Below the pieces are notes generated by a model, which had not been told where the DNA came from, did no database searches, and saw nothing but the letters and a program-made list of their open reading frames with translations. Position numbers and translations under genes: made by a program. Source: Synechococcus sp. MW101C3 (GTDB taxonomy: Bacteria; Cyanobacteriota; Cyanobacteriia; PCC-6307; Cyanobiaceae). Taken from it: a DNA stretch of 48,987 nucleotides. Each line of letters starts with the position of its first letter. Positions within the stretch are counted from its first letter, which is position 1. Location of the stretch: NCBI RefSeq assembly GCF_002252635.1, contig NZ_NQKX01000012.1:1-48987 (forward strand), written 5' to 3'. Below, one piece after another: positions 30,139 to 32,590 of this stretch.

Positions 30139-30327
30139 TCAGCCGTGGGAGTTCTGGCTCCGATCTGCTGCTGCCACCAGCTCCCGCCGCCGCAACTCCC
30201 GCCCAAATGCGCGGCTGAGCGCCTGTGCCCTGTGCCGCTGCCAGCGGCGCGCCATGCCCACAGCCTTGACGGCCAGCATTCCTGCCCAGATCAGGGCGGC
30301 AATGGTGTGAGGCGTGGGGTGATGCAT
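30139..30327 (-). CDS. Small hypothetical membrane protein
   Basis: A 62-residue frame: MHHPTPHTIAALIWAGMLAV gives a short membrane-type helix, followed by a strongly basic part (RRWQRHRAQALSRAFGREL, then RRRELVAAADRS). A GTG codon lies directly before the ATG. The composition (hydrophobic then basic helix) resembles small cyanobacterial membrane proteins, but I do not recognise a family. It may be translated upstream of the HAD gene on the same strand. Confidence 0.4.
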   Translation of the reverse strand: MHHPTPHTIAALIWAGMLAVKAVGMARRWQRHRAQALSRAFGRELRRRELVAAADRSQNSHG

Positions 30328-30479
30328 CACTCACCACTCTGGAGGCTGCCGGAGCGCAAGGCCGCGCAGCCATCACAAGGTGTTCATGACTTCCACACCT
30401 GATGGCCACTTCGCCCCCAGTCGAAACAGTGCGTTCAGGCCCAGCCCAAGCCCCCTCTGCCTGGCCTTACCTTGCAGCG

Positions 30480-31283
30480 ATGGCCAGTTCTGCCTCCCCC
30501 AACCCTTACTTCGAGGTCCAGGCGGTGGAGGCCTGGCTTGGTCCGCGCAAGGTGTTCGAGAACCTCAGCGTGCGGTTCCATCGCGGCGAGCATGCCGTGG
30601 TGATGGGGCCCAACGGCTCCGGCAAGAGCTCCCTGATCAAGTTGCTCAGCCGTGAGCTCTATCCGGTGGTGAAGCCGGGCTCGCGGCTGCGGCTGTTCGG
30701 CAGCGAAACGGTGAACCTGTGGCAGCTGCGTCGTCGCATCGGCCTGGTGTCGCAAGACCTGCAGGCCGGCTACGTGGGCCGGGTGCCTGCCGCTGATGTG
30801 GTGCTCTCCGGTTTCTTCGGTTCGGTCGGCATCGGCCGCAGCCAGGTGGCCAACGCCGCCCAGCGCGAGCGCGTGCGCACGCTGATGGAGCAGCTGGGGC
30901 TGGCAGATCTGGAGGAGCGTCCCTACGCCCAGCTCTCCGATGGCCAGCGCCGCCGGCTGCTGCTGGCCCGCGCGCTGGTGCATGAACCGGAGGTGCTGGT
31001 GCTCGATGAGCCCACCAACGGCCTCGATCTCCAGGCCCGCCACCAGTTGCTGGAGATCCTGCGTGGCCTGGCCCGGGCCGGCACCACCCTGCTGCTCGTC
31101 ACCCACCAGATCGACGCGATCATTCCGGAGATCAGCCGCTGCGTGCTGCTTCGCCAGGGGACGGTGGTGGGCGATGGCCCAGCCGCCACGCTGCTGCAGG
31201 ATGCCCCGCTCAGCGCCCTGTTCGACACGCCGCTGCGGGTGGTGAGCGCCAACGGCTACCGCCAGGTGCTGCCTGGCAGCTGA
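30480..31283 (+). CDS. ABC transporter ATP-binding protein
   Basis: A 267-residue ABC ATPase with Walker A MGPNGSGKSSLIKLL, Q-loop LVSQDLQAGYVG, signature AQLSDGQRRRLLLARAL (the usual LSGGQ is LSDGQ), Walker B VLVLDEPTNGLDLQARH and the H-loop LLLVTHQIDAIIPE. It resembles the ModF/YlmA-type stand-alone ATPases rather than a metal importer subunit, since no permease or binding protein lies nearby. The ATG at 30480 is favoured because preceding codons (MATSPPVETVRSGPAQ...) are low-complexity. The PPC-glutaredoxin gene follows after 49 bases on the same strand. Confidence 0.88.
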   Translation: MASSASPNPYFEVQAVEAWLGPRKVFENLSVRFHRGEHAVVMGPNGSGKSSLIKLLSRELYPVVKPGSRLRLFGSETVNLWQLRRRIGLVSQDLQAGYVGRVPAADVVLSGFFGSVGIGRSQVANAAQRERVRTLMEQLGLADLEERPYAQLSDGQRRRLLLARALVHEPEVLVLDEPTNGLDLQARHQLLEILRGLARAGTTLLLVTHQIDAIIPEISRCVLLRQGTVVGDGPAATLLQDAPLSALFDTPLRVVSANGYRQVLPGS

Positions 31284-31332
31284 GCTGTCGGGCTCACCCG
31301 TAACCTGACCCCCTGAGCCGTCGTCTTTGCCC

Positions 31333-32091
31333 ATGCATCCGTTGCCGCTGCACCTCGAACCCGGCAGCGATCTGCGCGCCAGCCTCGAGCAGCTGGCCGT
31401 GGAGCAGAACGCCGCCGGCTTCGTGCTGGGGGTGGTGGGCAACCTCTCGCGTGTGGCCTTTCAGTGCCCGGGCCGCTCGCAACCGTCGGTGCTGGAAGGC
31501 GATCTGGAGATCATCACCCTGCAGGGCACGCTCTCGCCCCAGGGAGTGCACCTGCACCTGAGCCTGTCCGATTCCGATTGCCAGGTGTGGGGCGGCCACC
31601 TGGAGCACGGCACCGTGGTGCTCAAAGGCGCTGATCTGCTGGTGGGCTTCCTGGCCGGCGCGCCGGAGCCGGCGCCGGAGCCAGCCGCCGCCGCCCATGC
31701 CGCCGCCATGGCCGAGGCCATGTCCCGAGCGGCCGCCCCGGCGCAAGCGGCCATGGCTGCCCCTGCGCCAGCCCCATACGCAGCGGAGGCGCCCCCAGCC
31801 GCCGCGCCCGCCGCGCCGCCTGCATCAGATCCCCACCTACAGGGCGACTCCCGGGTGGAGATCGCCGTTCTGCCCGGCTGCCCCTATTCCGCCCGCGCCC
31901 AGCGCATGCTGCGCACGCTCGGCATCGCCCACCGGGTCCACACCGTCACCAGCGACGACCAGCGCCAGGCCCTGCTGGAGCACACCGGCATCAACACCCT
32001 GCCGCTCGTGTTCATCGATGGGGCCTGCATCGGCGGCTACGACGCCCTCGCCGACCTGCACCTGCGCGGCGAACTGGACGCCCTGCGCTGA
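31333..32091 (+). CDS. PPC (DUF296) domain fused to a glutaredoxin domain
   Basis: A 252-residue two-domain protein. Residues ~1-115 form a PPC/DUF296 domain: GFVLGVVGNLSRVAFQCPG, LEGDLEIITLQGTLSPQG, HLHLSLSDSDCQVWGGHL with the GGHL metal-site region. Bacterial DUF296 proteins are trimeric, of unsettled function. A linker of ~55 residues rich in Ala and Pro (about 115-170) joins it to a glutaredoxin fold: VEIAVLPGCPYSARAQRML, GINTLPLVFIDGACIGGYDAL. The active site reads CPYS, so only the first Cys of the usual CPYC remains, as in monothiol glutaredoxins or thiol-exchange enzymes. The cis-Pro (TLP) and the glutathione GGYD motif are intact. I know no described protein with this combination; the ATG at 31333 is the best start. 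Confidence 0.85.
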   Translation: MHPLPLHLEPGSDLRASLEQLAVEQNAAGFVLGVVGNLSRVAFQCPGRSQPSVLEGDLEIITLQGTLSPQGVHLHLSLSDSDCQVWGGHLEHGTVVLKGADLLVGFLAGAPEPAPEPAAAAHAAAMAEAMSRAAAPAQAAMAAPAPAPYAAEAPPAAAPAAPPASDPHLQGDSRVEIAVLPGCPYSARAQRMLRTLGIAHRVHTVTSDDQRQALLEHTGINTLPLVFIDGACIGGYDALADLHLRGELDALR

Positions 32092-32179
32092 TACGTCTCA
32101 GATGGCCTGCGCAGTCAACTCGGACGCCAGCGCCGCGGCCACAGCCGCAATCCGCCTGGCCGGCCTGATCGCAGCTCCC

Positions 32180-32590
32180 TCAATGCCTGGAGCCGCTGGG
32201 CACCACCTGCATGCCGATCGGCGCCAGGGCGATCAAGGCCAGCTTGATGTGCTGGATGCCGAAGGGAATGCCGATGATCGTCACGAAGCAGGCCAGGGCC
32301 GAGCTGAGGTGGCCGAGGGCCAGCCACCAGCCCGCCAGCACGAACCACACGATGTTGCCCACCAGGCCCAGCGGGCCGGTGCCGAAATCCGTGCGACCGG
32401 TGAGCTCGCGGCGGCTCACGGCCTCCTGGCCGAACGGCCAGAAGGAGAAGTTGCCGATCACGAAGCAGGCGCGCGCCCAGGGCAGCCCCACGATCGTGAT
32501 CGCCGCCACCAGGCCGGCCAGCCACCAGCCGACCCCCATCAGGAAGCCCCCCAGCACGAACCAGAGGATGTTGAGCAGTGTGCGGATCAT
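32180..32590 (-). CDS. YccF-domain inner membrane protein
   Basis: A 136-residue protein with two repeated YccF units: NILWFVLGGFLMGVGWWLAG (about 6-25) and NIVWFVLAGWWLALGHLSSA (about 83-102), each followed by a helix with the pattern I-GIP- (VGLPWARACFVI, IGIPFGIQHIKLAL). Three to five membrane segments are expected. YccF proteins are common in bacteria but have no firm function. The start MIRTLLNILWF at 32590 is chosen because the preceding 27 codons look non-coding. It lies between two rightward genes on the opposite strand. Confidence 0.88.
   Translation of the reverse strand: MIRTLLNILWFVLGGFLMGVGWWLAGLVAAITIVGLPWARACFVIGNFSFWPFGQEAVSRRELTGRTDFGTGPLGLVGNIVWFVLAGWWLALGHLSSALACFVTIIGIPFGIQHIKLALIALAPIGMQVVPSGSRH

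Follow-up and report, generated by a model that had tools for sequence, protein, structure and literature searches.

A PPC (DUF296)-glutaredoxin fusion protein of picocyanobacteria with fusion-specific cysteines in its PPC domain

The closest described protein is the DUF296-GRX fusion, which a 2009 survey of glutaredoxin (Grx) multidomain proteins presents, in its passages on this combination, as a bacteria-specific architecture with a suggested role in gene regulation based on a zinc-finger-like motif in DUF296 (PMC2679010). The protein described here is also bacterial and has the same domain order; however, the survey assigns its Grx to the CPYC class, whereas the relatives analyzed here mostly read CPxS and the protein under study reads CPYS. 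The same passages of the survey make no statement on PPC cysteines, lineage, or shortened Grx domains, and its entries may differ from the proteins analyzed here. No other treatment of a PPC/DUF296-glutaredoxin fusion was found in the open-access literature searched, and the one mention of DUF296 in the accessible text of PMC11887855 is a reference. The initial annotation of this DNA had stated that no protein with such an architecture was described, which the 2009 survey contradicts. The architecture is already known, whereas the literature searched yielded no description of the two PPC cysteines, the predominance of Ser in the active site, the shortening of the Grx, or the lineage picture reported below.

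Each half of the fusion also has structural counterparts. Stand-alone bacterial PPC/DUF296 proteins (2hx0, 2nmu, and 2p6y) share the fold and the His residues of the PPC half (32% identity to 2p6y), but they have no Grx and no Cys at positions 45 and 83 in alignments. Class I glutaredoxins (Escherichia coli Grx3, 1fov/3grx; yeast Grx7) share the fold, catalytic Cys, Pro, and GG motif of the other half, and Grx7 also shares CPYS, whereas the Grx studied here is fused to a PPC domain and scores below the Grx3 equivalog cut-off. Class II glutaredoxins are marked by an insertion of five residues ahead of CxxC/S (PMC8161271). In the hybrid Prx5-Grx of Haemophilus (1nm3; chain positions 171-236 matched), the Grx is likewise C-terminal to a partner domain, but that partner is a peroxiredoxin rather than a PPC domain. 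The Grx of the 1nm3 hybrid serves its fused partner. To our knowledge, bacterial PPC domains have no settled function.

The fusion is encoded in the 48,987-nucleotide stretch of Synechococcus sp. MW101C3 that was analyzed (contig NZ_NQKX01000012.1, hereafter the window; genome size 3.03 Mb). Translation of a single open frame on the forward strand gives the order PPC, Ala/Pro-rich linker, glutaredoxin; translation could also begin earlier, at the in-frame TTG in position 31327. The features are as follows.

31333..32091, + strand: PPC-glutaredoxin fusion gene, 252 amino acids plus stop (open frame; same architecture in 132 loci and 122 distinct proteins, window included)
31333..31653, + strand: PPC/DUF296 domain (PF03479), residues 1-107 (Pfam; AlphaFold block means 91-98 to residue 110; 2p6y Z 20.4)
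31465..31467, + strand: Cys45 of the PPC, fusion-specific (122/122 fusions versus 1/46 PPCs without Grx)
31549..31557, + strand: His73 and His75, putative metal-site histidines (122/122 fusions; 46/46 PPCs without Grx)
31579..31581, + strand: Cys83 of the PPC, fusion-specific (122/122 fusions versus 0/46 PPCs without Grx, which have Gly in 46/46)
31597..31599, + strand: His89 of the GGHL motif (122/122 fusions; 46/46 PPCs without Grx)
31654..31845, + strand: Ala/Pro-rich linker, residues 108-171 (low pLDDT; length 10-65 over 122 rows)
31846..32088, + strand: class I-like glutaredoxin domain, residues 172-252 (PF00462; PDB matches Grx3 and cGrx2)
31879..31890, + strand: active site CPYS with catalytic Cys183 (C183 in 122/122; fourth residue Ser in 91, Cys in 29, Thr in 2)
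32002..32004, + strand: Pro224, the expected cis-Pro (122/122)
32032..32043, + strand: GGYD glutathione-site motif, residues 234-237 (G234 and G235 in 122/122, Y236 in 118/122, D237 in 88/122)

Both domains were recognized by Pfam above the curated cut-offs: the PCC domain PF03479 at residues 4-104 (E 7.7e-21; 75 bits against 25) and Glutaredoxin PF00462 at residues 175-233 (E 2.8e-12; 47.1 bits against 22.9). The protein falls below the NCBIfam cut-off of the Grx3 equivalog TIGR02181 (51.8 bits against 90), and it is not a dithiol CPYC glutaredoxin, as Ser186 takes the place of the second active-site Cys. GGHL occupies residues 87-90, C183-P-Y-S186 forms the active site, P224 takes the position expected of the cis-Pro, and GGYD occupies residues 234-237. 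An AlphaFold model built on 34 relatives had a mean pLDDT of 86.4 and a pTM of 0.51, with block means of 91-98 in both domains. The linker forms the low-pLDDT stretch and, because it is poorly predicted, the model makes no prediction of the placement of the PPC and Grx domains relative to each other. The PPC part of the model matched the PPC proteins 2p6y, 2nmu (Z 18.6), and 2hx0 (Z 18.5), and 2h6l, which is titled a metal-containing protein, was among the fold matches; the Grx part matched 4tr1 (Z 14.3), 3qmx (Z 14.2), and 1fov (Z 13.8). By sequence, the PPC part matched 2hx0, 2nmu, 2p6y and, weakly, 2dt4, and the top match of the Grx part was E. coli Grx3, whose 3grx chain reads CPYS in the alignment. 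Collectively, these results bear out the description of two intact domains in one protein, and the GGHL, cis-Pro, GGYD, and Ala/Pro-rich linker that the initial annotation had reported were all recovered.

Fusion frames were extracted from 132 loci and reduced to 122 distinct proteins, window included, by merging 10 repeats of identical proteins; loci were chosen by similarity to the fusion, such that very divergent members may be missed, and some genomes were fetched twice. One duplicate (L004) and the unfused PPC or Grx-only loci L005-L014 were left out of this set. Continuous fusions in 132 loci from many separate assemblies make an artefact of frame fusion, assembly, or contamination practically inconceivable and exclude the frame-fusion error that had been considered at the outset. 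Among the positions counted, C45, H73, H75, D80, C83, G88, and H89 of the PPC and C183, P224, G234, and G235 of the Grx were invariant (122/122), and no cysteine other than C45, C83, and C183 is common to all distinct fusions. Mean column identity over 34 diverse members was 50%. Between the anchor positions used, the linker spans 10-65 residues (median 17; 122 rows), with the window protein having the longest at 65. In each of the 11 pairs for which dN/dS was calculated, by a simple count, it was <1 for both domains; within the window clade, values were higher for the Grx (0.35-0.43) than for the PPC (0-0.09).

The active site is variable at its fourth residue (CPWS 42, CPFS 34, CPWC 27, CPYS 14, CPYC 2, CPYT 2, and CAWS 1). 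Conservation of the single Grx Cys, which the first reading had marked as worth checking, was complete (C183 in 122/122). The CPYS reading itself was likewise correct, but the accompanying statement that one Cys is lost is misleading, as Ser or Thr is the majority state (93/122) and a second active-site Cys is found in only 29/122. Loss of a Cys in the window lineage in particular is unsupported, because Ser prevails among the relatives. On a quick tree of the 122 rows, with a midpoint root only, long branches, and 48 of 119 inner branches weak, the Ser/Cys/Thr state requires eight changes and Cys alone seven, two of them forced by well supported branches. Of the 29 Cys rows, 24 belong to two groups in which the rows with names are all Synechococcus; a further three are from Prochlorococcus, and two are Cyanobium-like.

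The stretch corresponding to residues 205-215, comprising most of predicted helix alpha2 (208-218), is missing from 28/122 Grx domains (L018, L063, and 26 others). All 28 keep C183, P224, G234, G235, and Y236. A model of a shortened Grx had lower overall confidence (mean pLDDT 76.5) but was still predicted to fold, with blocks at 77-90 pLDDT and a C-terminal block at 51.

To place the PPC cysteines in context, the fused PPC domains were compared with 52 cyanobacterial PPC loci lacking a fused Grx, which gave 46 distinct rows, including four GlmU-PPC fusions, the second PPC of the window genome (L005), and a shortened frame (L162). Position 83 is Cys in 122/122 fused PPCs and in 0/46 PPCs without Grx, where it is always Gly; position 45 is Cys in 122/122 and in 1/46, respectively, the sole carrier among the controls being the shortened frame. 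H73, H75, and H89, in contrast, are present in 46/46 controls. Positions 98-101 also differ: unfused PPCs read TTxE in all 45 rows with letters there, whereas fused PPCs have Gly99 and mostly read KGxD or RGxD (15 commonest types, 108/122 rows). Neither Cys was found in seven PPC loci read from fusion-less genomes of the source's family, among which the match of L211 ends before position 83 and L200 has a Cys at 85. The same absence was seen in the alignments of 2hx0, 2nmu, and 2p6y, which include structures from Salmonella and Vibrio. The differences at C45/C83 and at 98-101 indicate that the PPC half was altered together with the fusion. Since the fusions probably descend from a single event, the co-occurrence of the cysteine pair and the Grx counts as one evolutionary association rather than many. 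The stand-alone second PPC of the window genome (contig C4, 231351-231644, - strand) lacks Cys at 45 and 83.

Genome neighborhoods were compared across 101 loci, a set in which some flanks are short and some genomes appear twice. In the window, an ABC ATPase gene (30402-31283) stops 49 bp ahead of the ATG used for the fusion. A homolog ending at most 100 bp upstream was found at only 5/101 loci in four genomes (two loci lie on the same contig), namely the window genome, two relatives of the same genus, and one more distant genome. ABC ATPase matches were detected in 41 loci (26-100% identity), and in 36 of these they lie elsewhere and may be paralogs. An operon with the ABC ATPase was thus rejected as a conserved link, and the tie to this upstream gene that the initial annotation had left open is unsupported in that sense; a joint transcript within the window clade is possible. 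No promoter or terminator was found in a scan of 30250-32250, where 0.1 and 0.3 would be expected. Clustering of neighborhoods was blurred by shadow ORFs, and no redox theme was apparent in the neighborhoods looked at. At L044, in a small genome taken to be that of a Prochlorococcus relative, the neighborhood comprises HisA, an epimerase, a CDP-alcohol phosphatidyltransferase, an NAD(P)H-binding protein, and an HhH-GPD repair protein.

The closest named relatives of the window protein come from an uncultured Cyanobium MAG and Synechococcus sp. ATX 2A4, and the best 80 of 363 relatives among genome contigs carry the titles Prochlorococcus, Synechococcus, Cyanobium, and their kin, with the exception of one contig labelled as a Bifidobacterium breve MAG (L075). 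The protein encoded on L075 falls among the fusions of picocyanobacteria, and this contig is probably mis-binned or mislabelled. In a sample of 386 genomes of the phylum, matches outside the source's family were single-domain among the matches listed. Four phage records matched, none covering >80% of the query.

Within the source's family, some match was found in 395/400 sampled genomes (251/251 of the better ones). By our reading, however, the best E-value was weaker than 1e-40, too weak for a full fusion, in 21 family genomes with completeness of at least 95%. A second search covered 19 of them together with one genome that is 94% complete. Among the matches listed for these 20 genomes, none spanned both domains, although the absence in G707 is unsure because two of its Grx matches are 36 and 53 bases away from contig ends, so that they may be truncated fusions. 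Beyond the seven loci read, PPC matches comprised two long ones and a fragment in G601, a match interrupted by stops in G677, and a fragment in G707. The fusion is widespread within the source's family, yet absent from parts of it, and a universal presence in the family was rejected. The fusion-less genome G601 has four long PPC matches, perhaps an expansion, and the two that were read (L194 and L214) are both unfused to Grx. PPC domains also occur in another fusion: L144:4418-6343 (+) encodes a GlmU-like protein of 641 amino acids in which a PCC domain lies C-terminal to a nucleotidyltransferase and hexapeptide repeats (Pfam on L144 only), and the same long GlmU-PPC frame is present at L145, L171, and L185 (86-97% identity) in three further genomes from a different family of the class.

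The cysteine pattern suggests, from sequence comparison, a redox switch built into the PPC half. We give the leading place, tentatively and at somewhat less than an even chance, to a glutathione-dependent thiol switch contained within one protein, with a monothiol Grx working on the cysteines of its own PPC. The C-terminal domain would be a monothiol class I-like glutaredoxin whose single active-site Cys183 would move glutathione on and off C45 and C83. These target thiols may belong to the same chain or to a neighboring subunit of a PPC oligomer, and the flexible linker would allow the Grx head to reach them. Their thiol state would alter the binding or assembly of the PPC module. We infer the role of C45/C83 as Grx substrate, the oligomerization of the PPC, and what such a switch would control. 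The invariance of C45, C83, and C183 despite only 50% mean column identity, the absence of the pair from the unfused PPCs read, and dN/dS < 1 in both domains are consistent with such a switch, and a tethered Grx beside a domain that has two invariant cysteines to itself would most simply be an enzyme with its substrate attached, on the model of the 1nm3 hybrid. Ser186 does not imply a dead enzyme, since CPYS class I glutaredoxins can be active: passages of PMC8161271 and PMC5382279 describe yeast Grx7 as having a natural CPYS site and Chlamydomonas GRX2 C30S (CPYS) as reducing and oxidizing roGFP2 more efficiently than the wild type. The earlier proposal that redox or glutathionylation state regulates the PPC module thus gains indirect backing from cysteines that are invariant when fused and almost never present in the unfused PPCs compared, while the coupling of Grx to PPC is what we infer. 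Against a thiol switch, the pair could instead serve metal binding or packing, its co-occurrence with the Grx is a single evolutionary association if the fusions share one origin, 28/122 Grx domains are without most of helix alpha2, the window clade has higher dN/dS for the Grx than for the PPC, the neighborhoods looked at have no redox theme, and some genomes of the family are without the gene.

Several of these observations could be accommodated differently. PPC might be a scaffold only, with its oligomer gathering several Grx heads that act on other cell proteins, and the initial annotation had likewise raised a PPC trimer that may gather glutaredoxin units; in plant AHL proteins, contacts between proteins are made through PPC domains and heterotrimers are predicted according to the relevant passages of PMC8056045, and the low-confidence linker of variable length and the complete catalytic and GG residues of the Grx would fit. 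However, a scaffold leaves unexplained why two PPC cysteines are invariant if fused and absent if unfused, and we consider it unlikely, if still a serious contender. The cysteine pair, perhaps with the PPC histidines, might instead form a metal or Fe-S site that the Grx loads, protects, or reads with glutathione. The invariant H73, H75, and H89, which lie near C83 in sequence, and the fold match to 2h6l would be in keeping with a metal site, but the same His set is present in 46/46 PPCs without the pair, implying that the usual site needs no Cys pair. For an Fe-S site, sections of PMC8161271 report that Chlamydomonas GRX2 (CrGRX2) binds a cluster despite CPYC and that yeast Grx4 given CPxS still can, but also that several class I glutaredoxins are hampered in Fe-S binding by a Pro next to the catalytic Cys on its C-terminal side and that CrGRX2 C30S was purified without its cluster. 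The active-site Pro and the cluster loss of the CPYS variant would argue against a cluster held by the Grx, although CrGRX2 itself indicates that Pro need not be a bar. Overall, we regard a metal or Fe-S site as improbable. Lower still, in our estimate, stands a Grx domain that binds glutathione as a sensor for the PPC module without being catalytic: the 28/122 domains without most of helix alpha2, the one CAWS site, and the absence of a second Cys in 93/122 could be read in this way, but C183, Pro224, and both Gly residues are kept in 28/28 shortened domains, which points to retained chemistry, and these domains are still predicted to fold.

Returning to the thiol switch, it can be extended to a one-protein glutathione redox sensor of picocyanobacteria, in which the state read by the Grx would set C45/C83 of a PPC oligomer and thereby switch its binding of DNA, protein, or a small ligand; we advance this extension as a speculation that is doubtful at present. 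If true, the fusion would be a redox-controlled PPC regulator, a kind for which no report was found in the literature searched. A Grx-tied PPC with invariant cysteines of its own offers a handle, consisting of three cysteines and one redox couple, on the function of bacterial PPC domains, and the carriers of the fusion include Prochlorococcus and Synechococcus.
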